A stretch of 33,004 bases of DNA from an uncultured Treponema sp. (GTDB taxonomy: Bacteria; Spirochaetota; Spirochaetia; Treponematales; Treponemataceae). The notes beneath the pieces were generated by a model. That model made no database searches. It saw only the letters and a list, made by a program, of their open reading frames with translations, and was not told where the DNA came from. Shown piece after piece: positions 1,835-33,004 of the stretch. The DNA lies in NCBI GenBank assembly GCA_946537975.1, contig CAMNGG010000339.1, positions 1-33,004 on the forward strand. Reading direction: 5' to 3'. The translations under genes were made by a program, and so were the position numbers. Positions within the stretch are counted from its first letter, which is position 1; each line of letters opens with the position of its first letter.

Positions 1835-2257
1835 TTACACAGTAGGAATTTCATCCAGTCTGAATGAATCCAGAATATCTTTTATTATTTTAGGCGCCAG
1901 GTCTGCCTTTTTAATTTTCTTTGCTATTTCCTTGAGTTTTTCATCTGTAATTCTGCCTTTATCTTCTGGCTTGAATTTGTTTACAAAATCATCTTCTGTA
2001 AAAGAAGATTCTATTTCATCAAGACATAAAAGGCAGTCTTCATCAAAACAGGATGTTTCGGCCTTAAATTCAACCCACGTTGAATCCTTATTATTTTTGT
2101 ATTTTTCTATCTCTGTTGTTGAGGTACACAAATATGCATTTCTAGGATTTTCAGAAAAATTAAGTCTCCCTAAAAAAACAAACCACCGGCATTTTGCTTC
2201 TTTGCCGGTGGAGGTATATGGAACTGTAACTTTTAAAACGTCCCCTACTTTATGCAT
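1835..2257 (-). CDS. Putative PemK/MazF-like toxin paired with Panacea antitoxin
   Basis: 140 residues from the ATG at 2257. The track begins six bases earlier at a TTG (2263). I prefer the ATG because AGGGA lies 8 bases upstream and the protein then starts MHKVGDVLKVTVPYTST. The opening GDVLKVTVPYT followed by a basic strand and WFVFLGR resembles the first strands of the PemK/MazF (SH3-like barrel) endoribonuclease fold, though the match is distant. The C-terminal third is lysine-rich and helical (ITDEKLKEIAKKIKKAD), unlike a minimal MazF of about 110 residues. The start overlaps the end of the antitoxin gene by 8 bases, so translation is probably coupled. Position and size fit the toxin of a type II pair, but the toxin family is inferred and no catalytic residue can be assigned with confidence. 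Confidence 0.5.
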   Translation of the reverse strand: MHKVGDVLKVTVPYTSTGKEAKCRWFVFLGRLNFSENPRNAYLCTSTTEIEKYKNNKDSTWVEFKAETSCFDEDCLLCLDEIESSFTEDDFVNKFKPEDKGRITDEKLKEIAKKIKKADLAPKIIKDILDSFRLDEIPTV

Positions 2258-2828
2258 TAGCAAAATCCCTGTATTTAATAAAATTCAATTCAGGGATTGT
2301 CATCTCTGCTTCAGATTTTGAGTCTAATCCAATAAATTCATCTGCATAATTCATTTTAGAATTCGGCTTACGATTATAAGCTATTTTCCATGCAAGAATT
2401 TCTTCATGAGTAATTTCTGCAGCCTGTTTACCTGAAATATTCTTTTTAATCACATTAGAAAGAATATCATCCAGAATCTTCTTTTCTGAAGGGGCAATAT
2501 AATCCAGGTCTGGTTCTTTTACAGAAACATAATATCTTGTTGCTCTCACAGAACCATTTTTATCTTTGTATTTCTTGTCTTTTGTTTTAAAACTTTCATA
2601 TAAAGACAAGTCTCCTTTATACAATTCTTCAGGAACAGGTCCTAAATCACGAGCAGTATACGTAAATTCAACACAAGGTCTTCCGTTCTGCTTTAATGCA
2701 CGAAAATCCAGAAGCGCTAAAACCTTAAACAAAAGGGTTTGGGTTATATAGCGTTCTTTTGCAGAATAGTAAGAACTTGCAATATATGAGACAACATTAT
2801 CAATTATTTCTTTACGATATGCTTTCAT
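2250..2828 (-). CDS. Panacea-domain (SocA/DUF4065-type) antitoxin
   Basis: 192 residues. The N-terminal half shows the DUF4065/Panacea signature: helices ending in TQTLLFKVLALLDFRAL, a glycine-rich step, then FTYTARDLGPVPEELY, equivalent to the family pattern where a LLY-type helix precedes the GPVP(E/R)-Y motif. A second family-like element, THEEILAWKIAY, follows at about residues 140-152. Panacea is a known promiscuous antitoxin domain that directly neutralises unrelated toxins encoded beside it. The next gene overlaps by 8 bases and is a small putative toxin, as expected. The ATG at 2828 lies only about five bases from the predicted transcription start and has no Shine-Dalgarno sequence, so the message may be nearly leaderless. 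Its promoter contains a palindrome in the spacer, suggesting autoregulation. Confidence 0.75.
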   Translation of the reverse strand: MKAYRKEIIDNVVSYIASSYYSAKERYITQTLLFKVLALLDFRALKQNGRPCVEFTYTARDLGPVPEELYKGDLSLYESFKTKDKKYKDKNGSVRATRYYVSVKEPDLDYIAPSEKKILDDILSNVIKKNISGKQAAEITHEEILAWKIAYNRKPNSKMNYADEFIGLDSKSEAEMTIPELNFIKYRDFANA

Positions 2829-2839
2829 TTTGGTATTTA

Positions 2840-2868
2840 ATTATAGCTAATAAATTAGCTTAATGCAA
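2840..2868 (-). promoter_or_regulatory. Promoter with palindromic operator for the Panacea antitoxin-toxin pair
   Basis: On the minus strand TTGCAT (2868-2863) and a perfect TATAAT (2845-2840) are separated by exactly 17 bases. The spacer is almost filled by the perfect inverted repeat AGCTAATTTATTAGCT (2860-2845). A repressor bound there would block RNA polymerase, the classical arrangement for conditional autoregulation of toxin-antitoxin operons. The predicted start site, about 2833, is five bases from the ATG. Confidence 0.65.
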
Positions 2869-2938
2869 TTAAAACTTATCAGTAGGTAGATTAGTCTCTT
2901 CTATAAGAGCTTACATCATTCTAAACTCCAAAATACTA

Positions 2939-3772
2939 TTAATGCACTTTAACTGTCAAAATTTCTTCATCATCTTTGAGCATATCGTCGATTCCACCCA
3001 TCCTACCAGGGCCAACCATCATTCTTTCTTGAATCCCATCAGGAATCTTTACATCTTCTTCATATTTAAAACCATATTTCAGAAGTTCAAAAGCTCTATT
3101 TGTATATGCAAATCCACCATAAACTTCCTTCAAAAGTCCTACAGAACGAAAATCATCAATAAAGTCCAAATCATCTTTAATGGTATTTGTTCCCGTTATT
3201 TGAATATGACTAATAAATCGGCAAATATCCTCTTCTGTTAGTTCAGAAATACATTTACATAATTTAAAGAATTTATCTCTAGTAATATAATCATTCAATG
3301 CTGCTCTTGTAAGATTAGCATAGTAAACTGATTTTTGCTTAGTTCCGGCATCATCCAATAATTTTACCAAACGCTTTGCACCTTCCCGCAAATGCTCAGG
3401 ATTCCCAGGATAATCGGCATCTTGGTTTGGTGTAGCTTCAGCTAATAACACAGAGAGTTCTTTCTTATTTTTGTTTACAAGTATAGACTTCTCTTTATCA
3501 TAATCATATACATGAAAAAGGTATGTTTCAAAGTTTTCCCAATATATTTCATCTCGTATTCTTGAAGGAAAAGTTCTTATTTCTTCAAATAACTTCATTA
3601 CAGAAACAGGATCTTTCGTAAATACGCCAATTGCATTATCGATAAATGATTTTTTCTCATTTATTAATACTTTGGATTTAAGTAAATTCGTTAACGATTT
3701 CATTAATTTGATATAATGTCTCTCTAATAATACACTAGAATATAAATATTGTTTTTTTTCTTTATTATTCAT
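2939..3772 (-). CDS. Hypothetical protein with possible C-terminal winged-helix region
   Basis: 277 residues; I do not recognise the family. The N-terminal 100 residues are charged and helical (VLLERHYIKLMKSLTNLLKSK). The middle has a helical stretch around EHLREGAKRLVKLLDDAG. The segment from LTEEDICRFISHI to GFAYTNRAFELLKYG looks like a small helix-turn-helix/winged-helix end in which GGFAYTNRAFELL would be the wing and last helix. No signal peptide or membrane segment is seen. The ATG at 3772 lacks a clear ribosome binding site. It has its own promoter, overlapping the divergent DUF3606 promoter, so it is probably not in the Panacea operon although it lies just upstream. A regulatory or stress/defence role would fit the toxin-antitoxin neighbourhood, but that is a guess. 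Confidence 0.6.
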   Translation of the reverse strand: MNNKEKKQYLYSSVLLERHYIKLMKSLTNLLKSKVLINEKKSFIDNAIGVFTKDPVSVMKLFEEIRTFPSRIRDEIYWENFETYLFHVYDYDKEKSILVNKNKKELSVLLAEATPNQDADYPGNPEHLREGAKRLVKLLDDAGTKQKSVYYANLTRAALNDYITRDKFFKLCKCISELTEEDICRFISHIQITGTNTIKDDLDFIDDFRSVGLLKEVYGGFAYTNRAFELLKYGFKYEEDVKIPDGIQERMMVGPGRMGGIDDMLKDDEEILTVKVH

Positions 3773-11601: not shown

Positions 11602-12522
11602 TCAAATACGAGTTCTATATAATAATTTCACAATTAATTTTGAAAGAAATGGGGGAAGAACTGATAAAGAGCAAAAAACTAAAGCGCGTATATTATAATT
11701 CAAATAGGGTTGTAGTAATTGCCTAACTTTTTTATTTTTCCCGAATTTAATTAAATATTTTGCAGTTGTAAAATCTCGTAAAAATGCAATTTTCTTAACA
11801 GTTTCTGGAAATCTACTTTCAATATTCCCATCAAGTTTTTTTAAATTATCAAGTGCGATACCATATTCAATTCCAATTCTTTCTTCAACTTGAAGTGTAG
11901 TCATTTTTTTATGTATTCGATAAATTACTAAAGGTTCTGACACATATAAAGAATTCCAATTATATGCAATTCTTGAAAATAATTCAAATTCCTCTGCATA
12001 TTGAAAATCAATATTAAAAAAATGATCTAATCCATTTAAAGCTTCTTTTCTTATCATAAAGGAACTTAGACAAAAACTATAATTTCCAACTAGTTCAGGA
12101 AAAGTTAATTTCTTTGTCAGCCCCTTTTTATCAAAAATATCAGTTTTACCTGATAGCATATTAAATCTCTTGAAATTTGTAAAAACCATTCCTATCGTTA
12201 AATCAGATTCTAAAAATTCAACTTGTTTTTTTAATTTATCAACTTCCCAAATATCATCACAATCAATAAAAGCAATATATTTTCCTTTTGAAAGTTTTAA
12301 GGCTTCATTTCGAGCAGCTCCTAATGATAAAAAATCTTTACTCTCATAATAATGTAATCTGTTATCAAATGTTTTTGCAATTTGTTCACTTGAATCTTCT
12401 GAAAAATTATTAAAAAAAATAATTTCAAAATCTTGATATGTTTGTTTTTTAATTGAATCTAAAGTATCAGCTAAGAATTCTGCACCATTATGACAATTAA
12501 TAATAATACTAACTGTAGACAT
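11602..12522 (-). CDS. Glycosyltransferase family 2
   Basis: 306 residues with the GT-A fold of family 2. It opens VSIIINCHNGAEFLADTLDSI, the usual nucleotide-binding strand. SLGAARNEALKLSKGKYIAFIDCDDIW around residues 66-92 contains the metal-binding DxD (DCD) motif. The segment FCLSSFMIRKEAL and a later AEEFELFSRIAYN carry the typical acceptor-side acidic residue (ED-like). Hydrophobic residues near the C-terminus (FCSLSVLPPFL) could touch the membrane. It adds one sugar of the repeat unit on the cytoplasmic side; donor and linkage are unknown. It starts one base after the wzy stop codon. Base composition is very AT-rich, like wzy and the next genes, suggesting this block was acquired together. 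Confidence 0.88.
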   Translation of the reverse strand: MSTVSIIINCHNGAEFLADTLDSIKKQTYQDFEIIFFNNFSEDSSEQIAKTFDNRLHYYESKDFLSLGAARNEALKLSKGKYIAFIDCDDIWEVDKLKKQVEFLESDLTIGMVFTNFKRFNMLSGKTDIFDKKGLTKKLTFPELVGNYSFCLSSFMIRKEALNGLDHFFNIDFQYAEEFELFSRIAYNWNSLYVSEPLVIYRIHKKMTTLQVEERIGIEYGIALDNLKKLDGNIESRFPETVKKIAFLRDFTTAKYLIKFGKNKKVRQLLQPYLNYNIRALVFCSLSVLPPFLSKLIVKLLYRTRI

Positions 12523-12523
12523 T

Positions 12524-13783
12524 TTATAACACTCCTTCGTTAGGCTTAGTCCAAGTAAATATACACATACATAAACAATATATTAATAGGCCAAACGATG
12601 TAACTAAATATGGATTACTATATGACGCAACCATTATTGCAAATAATGCTGCTAAAGAGCATAATTTCAAAGAAGACAAAGAAAACTTACTATTTTTTGT
12701 ACCATGAATTTGATAATATATCATAGAAAAGAAAGGATATAGAAAGCACAGTAATCCAATTATTCCGACTTTTGAAACAATATCATGAAAGACCATTTCA
12801 ACTCGTCCATCTCTTAATAAAATATGAGCGCCAGCGCCATTGCCAATAAAAATATGTTTATACATCAAATCTTTTAACATATATGTCATTTCAAGACGTA
12901 TATTATTACTTTCCGTTTCATTATTATGAAAAAATCTATTTATAAAAAAATTAATTATATCGCTATCTTGTTTTAATAAAATGATAAGTGAAAGTAAAAT
13001 CATTAATAAACTAATTATTAATATTTTTATAATTCTTTTTCTCGAATTCTTAGAAACCTTAGAATAATTCATAAGTACAAAAATAGAAGCTAAAACAACA
13101 CCTGCAATTATACCTCTTGAATAAGTCAAGAAAATTCCAATAAAATTAATAACTAATAATATAAAATTGAATAATTTCCCTTTATCAATATAAAAGCATA
13201 GAGAAAGAAAAAATGCAATTATTTGAAGTAATATACCTGAAAACATAATTCGCAAAGTATTTCCATCTTGATACATCATATTCATTAAATCAAAATACCT
13301 AACAAAATCCATTAATACAGAATGTAACGAAGGCTTTCTTATAGCTGCAAATAATAATAGAAAACTTAATAATGACAGTGTGGTTCCCAAAAAAACTAAT
13401 AATTTTATTAAAATATATAATTGTTTCTTTGTTTTTACAGAGAATAATAAACAAGGTAAAAAAATAAAATAAACATATCCTTTTAGAAATTCATTTGCAA
13501 TATCTAAATCTTGTTTAATAAAAACAGCTCTTACATATGAAAGGAAGAGTAATAATATATAAATAATTACACAAACAGAAAATTGGTTTATTATGACTTT
13601 CTTCTTTGTACATAATAAGATAAAGGTTGAGCCTAAAACCGATGCAAAGAGAATATAACGAAGATAATCCATTTCATTACCAGAAAGCAGACGTCCCAAA
13701 TGGAAAACACTATCTAGTATAAAAATACAAACAAAAAAGAAAGAAAGTTCGTATAATTTTATTGATTTCATTACTCTATTCAT
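12524..13783 (-). CDS. wzy: Wzy-type O-antigen/capsule polymerase
   Basis: 419 residues with about ten to twelve hydrophobic helices (for example FFFVCIFILDSVF, FVLLNYS-flanking segments and LLVINFIGIFLTY). It has the O-antigen ligase/polymerase family signature: TYSRGIIAGV before a helix, then a large periplasmic loop (HNNETESNNIRLEMTY, IFIGNGAGAHILL) and FHDIVSKVGIIGLLCFLYPF. Wzy joins lipid-linked repeat units in the periplasm. A WaaL ligase is the main alternative, but the position inside the gene cluster next to glycosyltransferases and with wzx favours polymerase. Sequence conservation in this family is low, so the assignment is by topology and motifs. The gene overlaps the preceding GT-B gene by eight bases. 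Composition is among the most AT-rich in the window. Confidence 0.8.
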   Translation of the reverse strand: MNRVMKSIKLYELSFFFVCIFILDSVFHLGRLLSGNEMDYLRYILFASVLGSTFILLCTKKKVIINQFSVCVIIYILLLFLSYVRAVFIKQDLDIANEFLKGYVYFIFLPCLLFSVKTKKQLYILIKLLVFLGTTLSLLSFLLLFAAIRKPSLHSVLMDFVRYFDLMNMMYQDGNTLRIMFSGILLQIIAFFLSLCFYIDKGKLFNFILLVINFIGIFLTYSRGIIAGVVLASIFVLMNYSKVSKNSRKRIIKILIISLLMILLSLIILLKQDSDIINFFINRFFHNNETESNNIRLEMTYMLKDLMYKHIFIGNGAGAHILLRDGRVEMVFHDIVSKVGIIGLLCFLYPFFSMIYYQIHGTKNSKFSLSSLKLCSLAALFAIMVASYSNPYLVTSFGLLIYCLCMCIFTWTKPNEGVL

Positions 13784-15029
13784 TTTTTAGTAAACTTAAA
13801 AATTTATCTTGTATTGCATGCTTATTGTGATTACTTAAGTACTTATCATATGCTTTATTAACAAACTCAATTCTTTTTACTTCAGAAGAAAGCAATATAT
13901 TTAATTGAGAATCAATATTTTCAGGATTTGTAACACAGCATGAAATATCTTTTAAGTAATCTATAGAACTTATATTGGCTGGTCCAATAGCTAAAATTGC
14001 TTTCTTTAGTGACATATATTCTGGAACTTTTGTTGATAGAGATAATCTTGTTTTTTCTATATTTTTTTGAGAAAAAGATTCTATAAAAACTAAAATATCA
14101 GCTTGATTTAGAATTATTTTTAGTTCCTCTTGGTTTAAGGAACCTTTATACTTGCTAACACCTTCAACCTCTATATTCTTGAGATTTTTTTTTGTTGGAA
14201 TATTATTTGTATATATTGAAAGGCAAGCATGCGTTTTATTCTCCATATTATAACGAGTTAAAGCATCAATTAACATCTTTATGGTTTTATCTCTACCGTA
14301 ATACAAGCTTCCAGCATAAACAAAGTTGATTGTATTCTTATCATTAAGAAGTTTTTTTTGATTTTTCAAAAATAACTCATCTGCCATATTTACAATTACA
14401 TAACTATTTATATTAAATAGTTTGTCATAACATTGTTTCATCATTGGTGAAACAACAAATAATTTATCAACTTTTTGAATTGCATTTCTTAACAATAACA
14501 GATTATGATTTCGACGTATTCTACCGAATAAAAAATCACTTTTTCTTGGTAAGATATAATCATCAGTAATATATATATATAATCGACAATTAAATTTATT
14601 TACTATATAATCACATATTTCATATGAAAAAAATGTATCACCAGCAACGAAAAAAACAATATTAGGATTAATTCTTTCTAACCAAATATCTAAACTTTTT
14701 GTCCACCAATGTTTATGCCAAATTAAATCTCTAACGCTACAGGTAAATGTATTACGAGGTAATTTTCGTGAAGTACTACAAGAGTCTTTTCTTTCTTCTT
14801 TTCTAACAAAGATTTCTCCACCTATCGTCTTTTTATAATATCCTTTTATTACGTTAACATCATTGATTCTAAAATATCTATAACCTTCAATCTCAGGTGT
14901 TTCAGATGAGAAATATAACTGATTTATTTCATCTTTAGGCAAAGAATCAAAAAAAGAATATAAAGTCTTTCCATTATTCTTTGTCCTACTTAGTACATTA
15001 TTACTTATTATTAATATTCTATCTTTCAT
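13776..15029 (-). CDS. Glycosyltransferase, GT-B fold (family 4-like)
   Basis: 417 residues. The N-terminal half has a Rossmann-like start (ILIISNNVLSRTKNNGKTLY) and an INPNIVFFVAGDTFFSYEI strand. The linker FVYAGSLYYGRDKTIKMLI marks the start of the donor domain, followed by IEVEGVSKYKGSLNQEEL, NQADILVFIES and LSTKVPEYMSLKKAILAIG, where the E-x7-E-like donor-site glutamate would lie. This is the common layout of GT4-type enzymes in polysaccharide loci. The sugar cannot be predicted. It lies between the broken acyltransferase and wzy, overlapping wzy by eight bases. Composition is very AT-rich. Confidence 0.78.
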   Translation of the reverse strand: MKDRILIISNNVLSRTKNNGKTLYSFFDSLPKDEINQLYFSSETPEIEGYRYFRINDVNVIKGYYKKTIGGEIFVRKEERKDSCSTSRKLPRNTFTCSVRDLIWHKHWWTKSLDIWLERINPNIVFFVAGDTFFSYEICDYIVNKFNCRLYIYITDDYILPRKSDFLFGRIRRNHNLLLLRNAIQKVDKLFVVSPMMKQCYDKLFNINSYVIVNMADELFLKNQKKLLNDKNTINFVYAGSLYYGRDKTIKMLIDALTRYNMENKTHACLSIYTNNIPTKKNLKNIEVEGVSKYKGSLNQEELKIILNQADILVFIESFSQKNIEKTRLSLSTKVPEYMSLKKAILAIGPANISSIDYLKDISCCVTNPENIDSQLNILLSSEVKRIEFVNKAYDKYLSNHNKHAIQDKFLSLLKNE

Positions 15030-15036
15030 AATTATA

Positions 15037-16023
15037 TTAGTTATTTTTATAAAATAAAGAGTTTTTAATTATTTCTTTTAAATCATAAATGAAGAAGGAT
15101 ATTGTAACGCTTATTATTAAAGTTACTAAATATATGTAAAGTGCATCAGATAATTTAATAATATTTTGAACAACTCCAATAATCATTGGATGTATTAAAT
15201 ATATTACCATACTTGAAAATCTCAGTCTTAATGCATGTCTATAATCAATTGAAAATATTGTTGGATTTTGAATAAAAACTTCAAAAATAATTATCATAAT
15301 TAATATATTAATATAAAATGAAGCAATATTTGGATTCCTTTTATGAATCAACCAGCGTATTATAAAATATACAAGCACAACTCCATATACAATCTTTTTT
15401 TTCATACTATATTTTAATGATACATTAAATTCTCGTACTAATATACCAAAGGAATTATATATAAAATTCTTATTAAAAATTCAGTGTAATAATTTCCATA
15501 ATGAGTTAGGCTTCTTAAATGAATTATATTATGAATATTTAATATAAAAATTTAATAATACACAAGATATAAAAATACAAATTTTTATATATTTATTATC
15601 CATTTTATAGAACACAAAAAAAAATAAAATTGAACATATAATAATTCCAAATAAATACCATAAATGCCCTAATGTGATATTTTCTAAAAAGAAATAACGC
15701 CAATTCATATATATATATCCAGCTTTATATTGAGCATATATCATTGTTGTATAATTTATAACATCACCTAATAATATAAGAAAAAACATTCTTTCTATAT
15801 GCTTTATTAGTTTATTTTTATCAGCATTTCTAAAAAAATAACCAGAAGTCATAGCAAAAAAAGGAACTGGAAACGACCATATAGTTTTTTGTAATGAAGA
15901 TTGTGAAAAGAAATTACAATGTATTGAAACAACAATAAGTGCCATTATAAATCTAACTATATCTATAGAAATATTTATATTTGATTTTTCGAAGTTTCTT
16001 TGAATTTTATTGTCTCCATCCAT
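15037..16023 (-). pseudogene. Acyltransferase 3 (OafA-like) with two in-frame stop codons
   Basis: The track lists two ORFs (15529-16023 and 15037-15405). They lie in the same frame and are separated only by a TAA at 15529-15531 and a TGA at 15481-15483. The 41 codons from 15528 to 15406, apart from the TGA, read as plausible protein (YNSFKKPNSLWKLLH, then IFNKNFIYNSFGILVREF). Together they make 328 codons, the normal size of a membrane O-acyltransferase. The N-terminal part has ISIDIVRFIMALIVVSIHCNF with the family's Arg and catalytic His, and VPFFAMTSGYFF. The C-terminal part has SSMVIYLIHPMIIG. OafA-type proteins acetylate sugars of the polymer. It is most likely a recently inactivated gene. 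AAGGAA precedes the ATG at 16023. Confidence 0.82.
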
Positions 16024-16444
16024 AGTTTATTTCCTTTAATTCTTTTTTATTCGATTCATCTTCTGTATGAATTCCCGGTATCACATCCATCAACATAGAT
16101 ATACCATCTCCAATCCCCTGAAAAGCCATCCATAATCCAGGTGCTACTGTAAGACGTTTATAATTATCCTTTGCAGATAACACCACATCCTCAAATTGTC
16201 CATATGTGGAGCTTCCTTCACGATCATCATAAATGACAAACCGAATAGCTCCCACAGGTACAACTATATTGAGTGTGTAGCGATTATGTCGTTTCCATCC
16301 TTTTATCGCCCCCTTCTCTATCTGAGAAAAATAAGCCTCACCAAAACCGCAAAAGCCTTCACTATTTGATTTTATTGCATGGAAAATATTACCTTTTGGA
16401 ACGGTAATCTGTTTTTCATCATGCAGAGTAACACCTTCAATCAT
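16007..16444 (-). CDS. RmlC-like nucleotide-sugar 3,5-epimerase family protein (cupin)
   Basis: 145 residues from ATG 16444. The track's start at 16483 lies inside rfbG and adds an out-of-frame peptide (MKLQIRNWSGQNS), whereas homologues as I recall them begin MIEGV, exactly at 16444, two bases after the rfbG stop. The jelly-roll has FGEAYFSQIEKGAIKGWKRH, YTLNIVVPVGAIRFVIYDDRE and a late APGLWMAFQGIGD strand, matching dTDP-4-dehydrorhamnose 3,5-epimerase relatives. With rfbF and rfbG directly upstream, the likely substrate is CDP-4-keto-6-deoxyglucose rather than a dTDP-sugar. It would change stereochemistry at C-3 and/or C-5. No reductase dedicated to the CDP-sugar is recognisable nearby. 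The stop overlaps the acyltransferase pseudogene start. Confidence 0.78.
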   Translation of the reverse strand: MIEGVTLHDEKQITVPKGNIFHAIKSNSEGFCGFGEAYFSQIEKGAIKGWKRHNRYTLNIVVPVGAIRFVIYDDREGSSTYGQFEDVVLSAKDNYKRLTVAPGLWMAFQGIGDGISMLMDVIPGIHTEDESNKKELKEINYGWRQ

Positions 16445-16445
16445 A

Positions 16446-17546
16446 CTATTTTGTCCACTCCAATTTCTGATCTGCAGCTTCATTCATATAGAATTCTATC
16501 TGCTTTTTAGTAAGTGCATACATATCTTCGCCAGACTTTTCATAATATGCCTTGTACCACTCTGCAATTACTTTTACACACTGTTCGTAATGTAAGGTTG
16601 AATGCCAGTGTAAATATGCTAAAGCCTTATCACAGTTAAGTTTGAGGAGTTTTGCCTCTTCAAAAGGAATGTTACCTGTAATTTTAGATGCTTTAGATTT
16701 ATCTATACCCCAGTTTTCTGCCAAATCTTGAGTAAGTTCAAATACAGTTTTTGTCTGCTCAGCACGTGGACCAAAGTTATAGGCTTCGCCATTTGAAGAT
16801 TTTCCTTCATATAAGTTCTGACCTAGTGTGAGATAACCGCTCAGTGGCTCAAGAACATGCTGCCATGGTCTGGTTGCATTAGGGCTACGGATTTCTACAG
16901 TCTCTCCTTTTGAAAAAGCTTTTACGCAATCTACAATAATACGATCTTTTGCCCAGTCTCCGCCACCAATTACGTTTCCTGCACGAGCAACACCAAACTT
17001 GATATTCTTCATATCTTTAATAAATGAATTCCAGTAACAACGGATTGTAAGTTCTGCTGCACCTTTTGAACCAGAATAAACATCCTTGCCACCCATTTCA
17101 TCTGTTTCACGGTAGCCCCAAATCCATTCAACATTGTTGTAGGCTTTATCACTAGTAATCAGAACGCAAGTACAATCCCAGGTAATATTTCGAATAGCTT
17201 CAAGGACACTAGCAGTACCAACAACATTAGTTGTGATTGTATCAAAAGGTTCTTTATAAGAAGTTGAAACAATTGCCTGTGCAGCAAGGTGGAAAATGAA
17301 ATCTGGTTTTACAGTTTGTACATATTCATTAAATTTTTCTTTGTCTCGAATATCACCAAATTCATTCTTGATTTTACTTCCTAATTCCAAAACTTCATAC
17401 ATTGCAGGTTCTGTTGGAACGCTAAGAGAATAACCAAAAACCTCTGCACCAAGCATTGTAAGCCAGGTAGAAAGCCAACTTCCCTTAAAGCCAGTATTTC
17501 CTGTAATCAGAACTTTTTTATTTTTATATACATTGTTGAATGCCAC
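16446..17546 (-). CDS. rfbG: CDP-glucose 4,6-dehydratase
   Basis: 366 residues. The start is GTG at 17546 with AAGGAG eight bases upstream. The Rossmann loop GNTGFKG is at 16-22, followed by SWLSTWL. HLAAQAIVSTSYKEP is at 86-100, TSDKAYNN at 131-138 and YSGSKGAAE (YxxxK) at 157-165; ATRPWQHVLEPLSGYL is a further RfbG hallmark. The enzyme removes water from CDP-glucose to give CDP-4-keto-6-deoxyglucose, the branch point for dideoxy and 6-deoxy hexoses such as paratose, abequose, tyvelose or ascarylose. rfbF directly upstream makes its substrate. The usual RfbH dehydrase for 3,6-dideoxy sugars is absent from the window; instead an RmlC-like epimerase follows. Confidence 0.93.
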   Translation of the reverse strand: MAFNNVYKNKKVLITGNTGFKGSWLSTWLTMLGAEVFGYSLSVPTEPAMYEVLELGSKIKNEFGDIRDKEKFNEYVQTVKPDFIFHLAAQAIVSTSYKEPFDTITTNVVGTASVLEAIRNITWDCTCVLITSDKAYNNVEWIWGYRETDEMGGKDVYSGSKGAAELTIRCYWNSFIKDMKNIKFGVARAGNVIGGGDWAKDRIIVDCVKAFSKGETVEIRSPNATRPWQHVLEPLSGYLTLGQNLYEGKSSNGEAYNFGPRAEQTKTVFELTQDLAENWGIDKSKASKITGNIPFEEAKLLKLNCDKALAYLHWHSTLHYEQCVKVIAEWYKAYYEKSGEDMYALTKKQIEFYMNEAADQKLEWTK

Positions 17547-27802: not shown

Positions 27803-28267
27803 TTATTTCGAAGACGTCGATTCCTCTGCTAAATCTATTCCAAATATTTTAGCTAATTGCTCTTTTAATTCTGAATCGACAAGGCCTTGTACCGATTTTT
27901 TTAGAGTTTCTGAATAACGTTCATCAGGCACAAATTTCTTAGCCGCATTGTTAATCAATTCAACAATAAAATGGAGTTCCTCAATCTTTTTTGTTTCAAT
28001 CTTCTCACGTATTAAGTCTGAAAAATCTGTTTTACGTTCTTCTATTAGATATTCAAGTTTTAAGAAATTCTGGCAGAAGATCTTTATTTGTTCTGGAATA
28101 ATAAACTTCAGTTCATATAACTTCTTTTCCATCTGAACCGAAAACTCTTTTTTCCAGCTTTTGCCTAATAAATTGAACAAATCTGTTAATTTTTCTGCAG
28201 GCAAATTAACAGCTGAAATCATTACTACTGATAAATTATAAAACAATACTTTTTTACTTTTAAACAT
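27803..28267 (-). CDS. Hypothetical protein, 154 residues
   Basis: I do not recognise this family. The first 25 residues (SKKVLFYNLSVVMISAVNLP) are hydrophobic enough to be a buried strand-helix pair but lack a clear signal cleavage site. The rest is predicted helical and charged (EKKLYELKFIIPEQIKIFCQNFL, LIREKIETKKIEELHFIVELI), ending in an acidic-serine tail. The ATG at 28267 overlaps no gene but follows an in-frame-coded 24-codon tail of the giant gene with TAA directly touching the ATG, so coupling to upstream translation is likely. It is probably the last gene of the same operon. No catalytic motif is seen; a small accessory or regulatory partner is possible. Confidence 0.55.
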   Translation of the reverse strand: MFKSKKVLFYNLSVVMISAVNLPAEKLTDLFNLLGKSWKKEFSVQMEKKLYELKFIIPEQIKIFCQNFLKLEYLIEERKTDFSDLIREKIETKKIEELHFIVELINNAAKKFVPDERYSETLKKSVQGLVDSELKEQLAKIFGIDLAEESTSSK

Positions 28268-28342
28268 TTATTCAGATTGCTTTAAGAATTTTCCAAATGC
28301 AGCAAAATCAGATGTTTCTAGCATTTCTTTTGCGACATAAAA
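28268..28342 (-). other. In-frame coding-like tail after the giant gene's stop codon
   Basis: After the TAA of the 1222-residue ORF, the same frame continues for 24 sense codons (FYVAKEMLETSDFAAFGKFL...KQSE) to a second TAA that abuts the next ATG (TAAATG). The peptide looks like real protein. It may be an original C-terminus cut off by a recent nonsense change, or a tiny ORF (MLETSDFAAFGKFLKQSE). It has no ribosome binding site. Confidence 0.35.
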
Positions 28343-31300
28343 TTATCTTTTCGTATAACTCAAATTTACCATTAAATGATAAAAAACGAGCCCATTCTCA
28401 TGAATAACTTTCAATATCTTTATTCCAGCATTTGGATAGTCCTGGCTTATGTCTTCATTTCTTACAATTAAATATTCAGCAGGATAATCAACTGCTAAAA
28501 TCTTTCTTTTTATTGTATTCCATTTTTTCAAAAATAATTTATCACTTTCTTGAAAGTAGATTAAATCAAATAAATACTTTCTGGAACTATCGTATTTGAA
28601 TAGCTTCAGAATATGTTTCTTCAAATCATTATAGTTTGACGTTTTAAAACGAATAGCTTCTAGTACAATTTTATAAGTCTGGAAACTTATTCTCATATCC
28701 GGCTCACCGCATGATTTCCCTGTTTCAGAGGCCCCACTTCTTCCCTGTACAGCTACATCGTATTTTAGTTTTTGCAGACGAGCTTTTAACAATATCTCAA
28801 CTAAATCTGTTATATTATCTTCATTTTCAGTTTGCAAGTTTGTAATAGTAACAATTTTATCCAAAATACTCTGCAAAACTTCATATAATTCATATAGAAT
28901 AAAATCACCTGCATTATTATGATGAACAGATACATTATCGGGAAGAACCTTAAAACGGTCATTATCTGGTAAGCAGACTATTTTTTCATACGTTGCTTGT
29001 AATGTTTTAATATTTTCAACAACATAAGTATACTTATTAGCAGCAGCTTGCTCCTCTGGCTTGAATTGCTTAGCCAGTCTTTTATACGCTAAACTGTCTT
29101 TCCCGTCTTCTGCAATATTATAAAATAATTCAAAAGCTTTATTTTCTTGCTTCTCTTTATTGTCTTTATTTTCTTGTTTCTCATTATGTTCTTCATCTTT
29201 TTCTTTTTGATCGTTTATGACCCTTTCAACATAATGTACGTCTGTTCTTAAAGATTCTGGTAAAGAATAAAAATACTCCAGTTTATTCTTTGCTCCTGTC
29301 TCATCAAGAATAACAAGTTTTGCATATTGCAAACGTTCATAAAAATATTCTGAACTATCTATGCTTTCAAGCATTTGTTCTATTTGTTCAAGTAAATCGC
29401 TGAAATCAGAATCTTTATTATCTATCTTTTCAAAACATGAAACATAGAGGAACATTGCCTTATATTCCTCATTATCAGGCTTTTCTTTAACTACCCCAAC
29501 AAGTTTATTGTACGCAGCTGTAATTTTATTATCTGCCATATCGAATAGAGACATATAGTATAGTTTTTGACAATCAAGATCTTTTATTGCATCTCTAAAC
29601 TCATAATTATTGTATGAATATGGAAAAGAATAATTTATAAGATCCTTACGTTTATTATCTCTATACATAAAGAACAATCTTAATGCTTCACAATTTATGG
29701 TAAAATCTGCAATAATTCCTTTCTCTGCCTTGTTTCTAACTTCTGCATCTAATTTATTAAAGAGAATGTGGCTTAAACTGTTTGATAAATGCGAGTTAAT
29801 AACCCGAACCGTGTTAGAATACAATTCCGGAATTGTAAAAGAGTTGTCCTGTATTTTGGTAAGATCCAGCTTAGAAAACTCATTTTCAAAGAATTTTCTA
29901 TCCTTCTCTTCCAGTAATTCATATAACTCAAACCAAATATTGTATGGAGCTTCTTTTAAAATTATTTCGAAAAGTTTTTCCTTGTGCTTGCTGTTAAAAT
30001 TTAAGATTGCTTTAGAAACATATGGAAAAATCTCATGATTAAAAGCAACTCTTGATTCGTATAAAGACGAAAATAAAAATATCTTCTTGTTTTTTACTCT
30101 TGAACTATTAGAAAAAGACTTTTTGAGAATATTATACAAAACATTTTCAAGCTGGTTGTGTAATTTTTTATTCACAAACCGTGATGAAAGGAAAGCATTT
30201 ACAAGAACTATGAGGTGGATGCGAATTTTTGCGGCATTATTTGTATTAAAATCATAATCTTCACTTGTTTTGGGCTTCCGATAATCAAAAAACTGTTCGC
30301 TAAAATTGCAAAATATATCAAATTTGTTTTTACTCTCTTCAAATAAATATGCAGCAAGCCGTACCCAGTCGAATTGCATTAGTTTTTGATATGCATCCAT
30401 TACACTTATTTGTGAGGTGACAGAAAGTGCTGATATATATTCCTCATACAAGCAAGAAGCTATATTTGACGTTTTTGCTTTATCATCCTTCCAAAAATCC
30501 AAGAGCGTAAAATAATATTCAAACGGCAATGTTTTAAATGAATTATCATATGCTCTAACAAATAATCCATAGTATTCAGCATAACCTTCAATAAACTGTT
30601 GTTTCTGACCTTTCTGCGTATATTTTCTACATTGTACGCGTAATTCGGAAATCAAAGTCTCTATAACCTCTTTTCGAGAATCCCTCTTATAGAAATCTTT
30701 GAGTTTAAGAAGATAAAGAAGAACAAAGGCCAATAATTGTGTATCAGAACTTGATTGCTTGAGAAATTGATTCAAAAAACTCTGAAATACAGATTCCAGC
30801 TGATTATTTAAACTTGAACTGAACTTGTTGTATCTTAAAGTGTCAGAAAAGCAACATTCCAGATATTCACATAAAAATACAACACCGGCAGGAGTAGAAT
30901 CGATTAATAACAACAATTTTTCTTGTGCCTGATTGCGTAAAAGAAATATTATTTCCAAAAATATGTAGGGAACATTACCAGATAAAAGAGCTTGCAAGGT
31001 CTTTTTGCATCTATAAGGATTGTTATCATTTACTATAGCAACTAAAAATTTTACATATATTTCTCTAATATCTGTTGCAAATATTTCCATGTGAGAAGTT
31101 TTATTTGCATAACACATTTGATACCAAAATTTTAAGGGATTTGAAAAATCAATAGAAAAATCACTTGTATCTAAATTATATATATCAATTTTTTCATGGA
31201 AAAACGAATAAGAGTCTAACAGAATCTTTGTAATCTCTGATTTTGCATCTTTGAATATTATATCTTTTTCGGATTTCAATATTAAGTCTGTAGTATTTAT

Positions 31301-32011
31301 AAATAGCAACGCATATTCTTCTGGTAATTCATTTAAAATATTTTTTATAGAAACAAATCTTACAAGCTTAATCCAATTAAGTAGCAATTGTTCATCGTTA
31401 TTATGATTTTTGTAAAGAATTATCAAAAGTTTTATAGGCAAAAAATTCGAAATTTTACCACTTAATTGCCATAACGTAAAATAGTAATTGTTTTGTTCTT
31501 CCCTGAAACTATACTTATTTAACAGCTCTTCCTTAGCTGAAAAGGAAGACTTAAAAATCTTAAAACTATTATAAATAGCATTAAAATCTTCTTTTGTTAT
31601 TACAAACTCTCTTGTATCTTCATATCCATATTTTTCGTGAAAGGCTTTTATATAAAGCAAAGAAGGTTCTACATTTCCTTTGTTTTTATATTCTTGTTCA
31701 GCATATTTAAGTACGACAGAAGGTAAATATACCTCTCCAAGTATTTCTCTTAGCCAAAATTTTTCGATAAATTCTTCATAGTTCAAGTTCGCATGATTAA
31801 CTTTATTGAATTCTCCAATATCCTTTTGAATTCCAGCAACTGTTACATCAAGCTTTGGTTTAGACTTAAGTAGAATTTGACATAAAAAATCGGAAATATT
31901 ATCTACCGTTTCAAGCAGGAAATAATCTTTATTTGGAGATTTTTCATGCGGTTCAGCAGAAAAGATTTTTCGAGAAACTTCATAAGCAGATTGTATTTCG
32001 TACCATTCCAT
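28343..32011 (-). CDS. Giant helical protein (1222 residues) with C-terminal PD-(D/E)XK-like domain
   Basis: Not assigned to a named family. Most of the protein (residues 1 to about 930) is helix-rich and repeat-like without a P-loop, signal peptide or membrane helix, as in an alpha-solenoid. A short linker of low complexity (DQKEKDEEHNEKQENKDNKE) precedes the last 260 residues. Near residue 1087 comes QGRSGASETGKSCGEPDMRIS, then YKIVLEAIRF. This GRSxxGxxxGExD...EA pattern resembles a PD-(D/E)XK nuclease core of anti-phage proteins. The third motif reads LEAIR rather than ExK, so activity is uncertain. KKHILKLFKYDSSRKYLFDLIYF follows, as in that group. AAGGA lies six bases before the ATG. A membrane-anchored protein is encoded upstream and a small protein downstream. 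A defence role is inference. Confidence 0.6.
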   Translation of the reverse strand: MEWYEIQSAYEVSRKIFSAEPHEKSPNKDYFLLETVDNISDFLCQILLKSKPKLDVTVAGIQKDIGEFNKVNHANLNYEEFIEKFWLREILGEVYLPSVVLKYAEQEYKNKGNVEPSLLYIKAFHEKYGYEDTREFVITKEDFNAIYNSFKIFKSSFSAKEELLNKYSFREEQNNYYFTLWQLSGKISNFLPIKLLIILYKNHNNDEQLLLNWIKLVRFVSIKNILNELPEEYALLFINTTDLILKSEKDIIFKDAKSEITKILLDSYSFFHEKIDIYNLDTSDFSIDFSNPLKFWYQMCYANKTSHMEIFATDIREIYVKFLVAIVNDNNPYRCKKTLQALLSGNVPYIFLEIIFLLRNQAQEKLLLLIDSTPAGVVFLCEYLECCFSDTLRYNKFSSSLNNQLESVFQSFLNQFLKQSSSDTQLLAFVLLYLLKLKDFYKRDSRKEVIETLISELRVQCRKYTQKGQKQQFIEGYAEYYGLFVRAYDNSFKTLPFEYYFTLLDFWKDDKAKTSNIASCLYEEYISALSVTSQISVMDAYQKLMQFDWVRLAAYLFEESKNKFDIFCNFSEQFFDYRKPKTSEDYDFNTNNAAKIRIHLIVLVNAFLSSRFVNKKLHNQLENVLYNILKKSFSNSSRVKNKKIFLFSSLYESRVAFNHEIFPYVSKAILNFNSKHKEKLFEIILKEAPYNIWFELYELLEEKDRKFFENEFSKLDLTKIQDNSFTIPELYSNTVRVINSHLSNSLSHILFNKLDAEVRNKAEKGIIADFTINCEALRLFFMYRDNKRKDLINYSFPYSYNNYEFRDAIKDLDCQKLYYMSLFDMADNKITAAYNKLVGVVKEKPDNEEYKAMFLYVSCFEKIDNKDSDFSDLLEQIEQMLESIDSSEYFYERLQYAKLVILDETGAKNKLEYFYSLPESLRTDVHYVERVINDQKEKDEEHNEKQENKDNKEKQENKAFELFYNIAEDGKDSLAYKRLAKQFKPEEQAAANKYTYVVENIKTLQATYEKIVCLPDNDRFKVLPDNVSVHHNNAGDFILYELYEVLQSILDKIVTITNLQTENEDNITDLVEILLKARLQKLKYDVAVQGRSGASETGKSCGEPDMRISFQTYKIVLEAIRFKTSNYNDLKKHILKLFKYDSSRKYLFDLIYFQESDKLFLKKWNTIKRKILAVDYPAEYLIVRNEDISQDYPNAGIKILKVIHENGLVFYHLMVNLSYTKR

Positions 32012-32030
32012 TCTTAATCCTTATTAACTA

Positions 32031-32060
32031 TACATAATATGTTATACCAATCGGTTTCAA
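32031..32060 (-). promoter_or_regulatory. Possible promoter of the giant gene
   Basis: TTGAAA (32060-32055) and TATGTA (32036-32031) with an 18-base spacer lie about 20 bases before the ATG at 32011. An overlapping TATTAT with a 15-base spacer is an alternative -10. The call is weak. Confidence 0.3.
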
Positions 32061-32166
32061 AAGCTAAAATTTCACCTAGTTTTTTTGTTAATTATGAATG
32101 ACAGTTTTGTTACTATATTTTCCAAATGATGTAAACACACTCAAATATTCCTGCCACTATATTCTC

Positions 32167-32856
32167 TTATTTTTCGTAGCGAATTATTGATTGCAATTGT
32201 TTCTTTTCTTCACTAAGCCTTTCAGGAAGTTTGGCAAGCATCTCTTTTACTTCGTCAACTTCTGTATGGTCAAAAAGAATCCCTTCTGAACAGGAATCTT
32301 TTATGTAATCAATATAATCATTAAACAACCATTCAGAATTACCCCAATTTGATTCTGACAATATATTTAATATTTTAAGAGATATTGATAATTTTATTCT
32401 TTGATTAGACTCATGATTGAATTTATATGACAAGAAATCATATCGTTGTTCCAGTAAATCTTGCTTTAATCTATCTTCTATAAATGCTGTTTTATCCAAA
32501 ATGATTTTTGAATTCTGTCGTAATAATTCATTAATTTTATTTTGATAATCTTGTTCAAGTTCATTCTTTATTTTGCTTAATTCTTCTTTATAATTCTTAT
32601 GATAGTTATAACCTGTAATTCCAAGAAATGCCAAAATCGCCGCAACTATTATTCCCAGAGTTGCCAGATATGTTGTATTAACTCTATCAAAGGAGTCTTT
32701 ACAAGCTTCTAATTTGGCATCTAAAATTTCATAATTATTCATTTCGCTTTTGTTTTCTGTTATGTGTAAACCTATAGCTTCCTCTGGACTGTTTTGTGAA
32801 AATACAGGTAACAAAAATATTGAATATAATAATATTAGCAAATGTAGTTTTTTCAA
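32167..32856 (-). CDS. Membrane-anchored coiled-coil protein with signal peptide, hypothetical
   Basis: 229 residues. The start is TTG at 32856: GAGG lies six bases upstream, and only this start gives the full signal peptide KKLHLLILLYSIFLLPVFSQ. After a short extracytoplasmic stretch comes one membrane helix (TYLATLGIIVAAILAFLGITGY, about residues 62-83). A charged coiled coil follows (YKEELSKIKNELEQDYQNKINELLRQ), then a helical C-terminal domain (KLSISLKILNILSESNWGNSEWLF) reminiscent of cytoplasmic domains of small membrane sensors. By topology the N-terminal loop is outside and the coiled coil inside. The function is unknown. It is 155 bases upstream of the giant protein gene, same strand, and may be its membrane partner. 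Confidence 0.6.
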   Translation of the reverse strand: MKKLHLLILLYSIFLLPVFSQNSPEEAIGLHITENKSEMNNYEILDAKLEACKDSFDRVNTTYLATLGIIVAAILAFLGITGYNYHKNYKEELSKIKNELEQDYQNKINELLRQNSKIILDKTAFIEDRLKQDLLEQRYDFLSYKFNHESNQRIKLSISLKILNILSESNWGNSEWLFNDYIDYIKDSCSEGILFDHTEVDEVKEMLAKLPERLSEEKKQLQSIIRYEK

Positions 32857-32922: not shown

Positions 32923-33004
32923 AACCACCCGTCAAACGGGTGGTTTGCTCTTAGCCTATAAGGCTAAGGGTCTCAAGCCGAGACTTAAGTCCCACGCTTT
33001 CACT
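32923..33004. mobile_element. Hairpin array resembling an IS200/IS605 element end or omega-RNA scaffold, partial
   Basis: Three perfect hairpins follow one another: AACCACCCGT/ACGGGTGGTT (32923-32945), CTTAGCC/GGCTAAG (32950-32968) and GTCTC/GAGAC (32970-32984). They are followed by ACTTAAGTCCCACGCTTTCA at the window edge. On the minus strand this reads as a structured tail of the kind found beside tnpB genes in IS200/IS605-family elements. I recall similar sequences but cannot verify it here, and any transposase gene would be outside the window. The first hairpin plus TTT could also serve as a terminator on the plus strand. Confidence 0.45.

Follow-up and report, generated by a model that had tools for sequence, protein, structure and literature searches.

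The window analysed here, a stretch of 33,004 bases from an uncultured Treponema sp., is a full contig (CAMNGG010000339.1) of an incomplete assembly, and three adjacent open reading frames (ORFs) on its minus strand lie beside a polysaccharide locus. They encode a membrane coiled-coil protein of 229 residues with a TTG start (32856-32167), a giant protein of 1222 residues (32011-28343) and a small product of 154 residues (28267-27803). The original prediction had taken them for one undescribed system, in which a membrane-linked sensor would act with a nuclease-like giant and a small partner. Here, we describe the giant and a C-terminal domain that it shares with other kinds of protein, and we propose, with moderate confidence, that the giant is a stand-alone putative anti-phage sensor-nuclease with an interchangeable effector tail.

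The last 160 residues of the giant (1063-1222; 28346..28825, minus strand, as for all positions given for this protein) form a modular domain, which appears PD-(D/E)XK-like with a moved lysine. Our alignment comprises 20 sequences, 18 of them distinct, from four protein architectures, and 13 positions are invariant in all 20 (E1064, D1065, Q1089, G1093, S1095, G1102, E1103, D1105, E1118, A1119, H1133, K1136 and Y1140), G1098 showing one exception. The signature Q1089-x3-G1093-x-S1095-x6-G1102-E1103-x-D1105 (28697..28747) ends in the predicted metal-binding aspartate, and the predicted second metal ligand, E1118 (28658..28660), stands in an E-A-hydrophobic motif instead of E-x-K. Indeed, the place of the canonical ExK lysine is hydrophobic (I/V/F/L/M) in every copy. 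Many copies have a basic residue at E+3, which ORF333 of phage P2-EC5, a GTPase fusion and a 226-residue protein described below do not, whereas K1136 (28604..28606), the candidate migrated catalytic lysine in the helix that follows core strand three, is never lost. In distant genomes a profile of the domain reaches E 6e-26 and 4e-28, which places this C-terminal motif far from chance.

The AlphaFold2 model of the domain (10 sequences; predicted local distance difference test, pLDDT, 74.5; predicted template modelling score, pTM, 0.75) has the order a-b-b-a-b-a-b-b-b, with the first core strand not assigned; acidic residues open one core strand and lie inside the following one. In Foldseek searches against the PDB, ranks 1 and 2 were McrC (6hz4_M and 7vsr_M, E 1.6e-3 and 6.7e-3), several of the next matches were arenavirus cap-snatching endonucleases, and Avs4 came at rank 11. 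A non-significant hhalign alignment with McrC pairs D1105/E1118 with D244/D257, which we take to be the catalytic residues of that enzyme. Judging from the model, the C-terminus of the giant most likely adopts a PD-(D/E)XK-type fold in which the ExK motif is altered; this agrees with the atypical nuclease effector that had been predicted. The alternative wording of that prediction, a degenerate nuclease, is probably wrong. The invariance of E1064, D1105, E1118 and K1136 over four architectures fits an active site with its lysine in the next helix, and in several PD-(D/E)XK families the catalytic lysine is known to have moved into the helix that follows the third strand (PMC1913061). The Toscana virus endonuclease likewise carries its catalytic lysine in a helix (D113, E127, K145), with a D-E-K spacing of 14 and 18 versus 13 and 18 in our domain (PMC6847833). 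Because lysine migration is known elsewhere and K1136 is always retained, we think it likelier that the active site works with a displaced lysine than that it is degenerate.

The four architectures, whose domains are homologous at the sequence level, are the giant, ORF333, an LRR-Roc-COR (ROCO) GTPase and the 226-residue protein. Profile searches located ORF333-type proteins in P2-like prophages of E. coli and its relatives, where their genes come after that of an AAA_15 ATPase, between gpQ (portal) and gpA (replication; for instance L044:3300-6002, L045:2819-5489 and L046:243-2913). The E. coli prophage pair, which is annotated as hypothetical and which a DNA search located in 8 of 5426 E. 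coli genomes, is the same as ORF555/ORF333 of phage P2-EC5 (AM157364), for which literature searches by accession and ORF name returned no description or published test. The ATPase matches the PADLOC models NsnB, HEC-03B, PDC-M55A and AriA; ORF333 has no PADLOC match at E 0.001. The gpA-gpQ slot is the cos-proximal P2 hotspot, where Rousset et al. validated several anti-phage systems (PMC9122126). The ROCO protein, from another Spirochaetota family, has 1068 residues with the domain at its C-terminus (L055:7239-10445, plus strand; hhalign E 1.8e-18). The 226-residue protein, from the genome G231, is mostly the domain and follows a coiled-coil membrane protein of 574 residues (gene pair at L054:5345-7752, minus strand). 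By eye, this pair bears the stretches GIQLGDGNSM and GVQVGSSNSM, resembling the RHIM-like BASS3 class of amyloid signalling motifs (PMC8086366), and it is adjoined by a DUF6119 gene and a type IIG-like restriction-modification (RM) gene. Neither the ROCO fusion nor the 226-residue protein has a PADLOC match. The 574-residue protein, as a separate observation, weakly resembles the ZorA coiled coil.

Upstream of the domain, residues 1-990 of the giant (29042..32011) were modelled with AlphaFold2 (6 sequences; pLDDT 71, pTM 0.53) as an almost all-alpha solenoid of ~55 helices, a putative sensor or scaffold. Foldseek matches it to alpha-solenoids of a generic kind (Ski complex, Ctr9, importin-beta), and the model points to a binding scaffold and to nothing more specific. 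A low-complexity K/E/N (Lys/Glu/Asn) linker at residues 936-958 (29138..29206) is an insertion in the window copy, its place being a gap in the Treponema relatives G201 and G544 and in the aligned proteobacterial homologues. The helical region, this linker and the terminal GRSGASETGKSCGEPD...LEA stretch, all reported originally, are present. Searches with the giant proteins and with the domain returned nothing significant from Pfam, NCBIfam, PADLOC or the PDB sequences, so that the gene does stand as unrecognised, and its lack of a P-loop was borne out by the lack of any Pfam nucleoside triphosphatase (NTPase) match. The Walker-A look-alike GASETGKS (1093-1100) was rejected as a P-loop because it is not conserved, reading GRSASGQS, GKSSSGVN or GQSASGKG in relatives.

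The giant, compared over its full length with homologues of 1201-1269 residues, belongs to a single-gene family of ~1200-1270 residues found in Treponema, Fibrobacter, Edwardsiella, Salmonella, Citrobacter, Burkholderia, Janthinobacterium and a viral contig (L015). Within the genus, G201 and G544 carry the two full-length relatives (3 of 200 genomes, that of the window included). It was a weak plasmid match (E 0.2) that led to the proteobacterial branch, of ~1250-1270 residues; BLAST does not bridge the diverged N-terminal parts of the branches, but the C-terminal 160 residues can be aligned across all of them, and the lengths agree. A search of E. coli for the Salmonella giant gave no match, and a viral match (L002) was discarded as spurious, since a T4-like phage gene occupies the other strand at that place.

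What stands beside the giants? In G544 the gene starts 8 bp after hsdS, and in Fibrobacter, where the operon order is hsdR-hsdM-yhcG-x-hsdS-giant, it starts 58 bp after hsdS. The Burkholderia giant begins 83 bp after an OLD-like ATPase-Toprim gene, and that of Janthinobacterium has an LmuA-like NTPase (Lamassu-type) upstream. The Salmonella giant lies in an integrase-bearing island with an ATP-binding protein (hhalign of our domain profile with the Hsp90-type protein of this island was not significant), the Edwardsiella giant is on a plasmid, and the Citrobacter giant stands alone among chromosomal genes. Acinetobacter plasmid copies consisting of only the C-terminal 225 residues are found beside IS1008 (L013:5600-6274 and L014:9001-9675). 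Because the domain ends very different proteins, often beside known anti-phage genes, it is likely an exchangeable effector of bacterial immunity.

Comparison with known systems gives partial likenesses. With the PD-(D/E)XK superfamily the domain shares the motif II Asp and the motif III Asp/Glu, as D1105 and E1118 (20/20), and with McrC, its best PDB fold match, the acidic pair at corresponding strand positions; but in place of the canonical ExK lysine it has an invariant lysine in the next helix, and it shows no significant sequence similarity to McrC and has no McrB-like GTPase partner. The cap-snatching endonucleases and DUF506, DUF790 and DUF1626 also combine an acidic pair with a basic residue in the following helix (PMC6847833, PMC1913061); this would be a likeness of active-site layout only, as sequence searches find no homology. 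ORF333 ends in the domain of the giant with all its invariant residues; however, its partner is the AAA_15 ATPase ORF555, and where the giant has a solenoid ORF333 has a short N-terminal part. The domain also ends one Spirochaetota ROCO protein, whereas the giant has neither GTPase nor LRR. Finally, Avs/STAND-type proteins resemble the giant in being large and repeat-rich with a terminal nuclease-like domain, and Avs4 is among the fold matches, but the giant lacks their P-loop NTPase, has its nuclease-like domain at the C-terminus and matches nothing in PADLOC.

How could such a protein work? In the sensor-nuclease reading, the ~1000-residue alpha-solenoid would sense or bind a component of the invader and restrain the C-terminal domain, and a trigger would free this tail, which probably cuts DNA or RNA, either of the invader or of the cell itself. 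Its predicted active site would comprise D1105 and E1118 as metal ligands, together with E1064 and K1136, the latter presumably taking over the role of the missing lysine. We extend this, as a tentative though quite possible generalisation, to an undescribed exchangeable migrated-lysine nuclease domain serving at least four kinds of immune sensor: solenoid giants, AAA_15-linked ORF333, LRR-Roc-COR GTPases, and small RHIM-like-linked proteins beside coiled-coil membrane proteins. If so, a single domain that Pfam, NCBIfam and PADLOC all lack would name the effector of several defence candidates that cannot at present be read, including cargo of the proven P2 hotspot, and the exact residues to mutate would be D1105, E1118, K1136 and their equivalents. 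A bacterial ROCO protein would moreover have a nuclease-like effector end, which could tie ROCO proteins to immunity.

Several points weigh against this interpretation. The neighbourhoods were read case by case, without a random-gene baseline; the two hsdS cases may be a single event, because the giants concerned are closely related (69% identical in the C-terminal domain); and the window giant has no intact defence gene adjacent to it, only a KAP remnant. On the structural side, every Foldseek match of the domain has E above 0.001 and a template modelling (TM) score of at most 0.31, hhalign comparisons of the domain profile with McrC, Mrr and YhcG were not significant, no Pfam nuclease model matches the domain, and K1136 can only be presumed to lie near E1118. 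These weak Foldseek statistics and non-significant alignments would suit a domain of some other fold, enzymatic in its own way and only superficially similar to PD-(D/E)XK enzymes. We consider this improbable, as the succession of strands and helices, in which acidic residues open one core strand and lie inside the following one, and the two best PDB matches and several of the following ones, which are PD-(D/E)XK enzymes, argue otherwise.

That all copies lack the canonical ExK lysine, and that in two type I RM loci a giant comes immediately after hsdS, could alternatively mean that the domain is a non-catalytic PD-(D/E)XK-like module for nucleic-acid binding, with which the giant guards or modulates restriction systems without cutting. 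This is, in our opinion, unlikely, though slightly less so than a different fold: the strict invariance of E1064, D1105, E1118, H1133 and K1136 over four architectures is the pattern of a working active site, and most giants lie outside RM operons. The presence of copies on plasmids, a viral contig, prophages and integrase-bearing islands could also suggest that the giant or its domain is cargo of mobile elements with a non-defence role, such as maintenance or inter-element competition. We give this explanation no more weight than a different fold, since the P2 gpA-gpQ slot is an anti-phage hotspot with experimental support (PMC9122126) and several copies lie beside RM, OLD or Lamassu-like genes.

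The sensor-nuclease reading concerns the giant only, and the two ORFs beside it are, from what we found, neighbours unrelated to it, so that the trio is not one system. The 229-residue protein does have the signal peptide and membrane helix that had been described, as a signal-like hydrophobic stretch at residues 1-19 and one membrane helix at ~60-80, followed by a coiled coil. Its sole clear homologue, a protein of 183 residues in G514 (42% over 201 alignment columns, with a ~50-residue coiled-coil deletion), has no giant adjoining it. Pfam and NCBIfam matches to RNase_Y_N, SLATT_fungal and mycoplas_twoTM fall below all cut-offs, likely reflecting coiled-coil and transmembrane composition, and were set aside. 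Upstream of this gene we noticed by eye a terminator-like hairpin, CCACCCGTTTGACGGGTGG, at 32924-32945.

The 154-residue ORF aligns over 145 residues, at 75% identity, with the tail (residues 955-1099) of a 1099-residue protein of the related Treponema G143, a KAP-family P-loop NTPase (Pfam E 4.8e-26) encoded intact in a glycosyltransferase locus (L036:8684-11983, minus strand). Because the window retains only this tail, the ORF is, on sequence grounds, a C-terminal remnant of such an NTPase and no partner gene; three ORFs do exist where three genes had been announced, but this one does not count as a gene. Moreover, neither the membrane gene nor the small ORF was found beside the giants of G201, G544, Fibrobacter, Edwardsiella, Burkholderia, Salmonella, Citrobacter, Janthinobacterium and the viral contig, and an Edwardsiella ORF upstream of the giant, tried as a membrane partner, turned out to be an unrelated plasmid protein of 241 residues. 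Adjacency on one strand, and a GC content of 0.275-0.295 in all three ORFs against a higher 0.325 for the rest, are what speaks for a conserved system in which a coiled-coil membrane sensor would act with the giant nuclease and the small partner. With one of the three a remnant, the membrane-protein homologue solitary in G514 and every giant examined in relatives without either neighbour, which had itself been named as a refuting outcome, we hold such a system to be highly improbable, and the membrane-linked sensor falls with it.

Since the KAP gene of G143 and the membrane gene of G514 likewise adjoin glycosyltransferase genes, the end of the polysaccharide locus seems to be an insertion-prone site common to unrelated genes, which suggests shared location and not co-function. 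Inside the polysaccharide locus of the window itself, positions 12001-16500 have a GC content of 24-26%, below their flanks, and positions 2250-3772 hold two minus-strand ORFs of 192 and 277 residues, the first of which resembles, by eye, a Panacea/DUF4065-type antitoxin.

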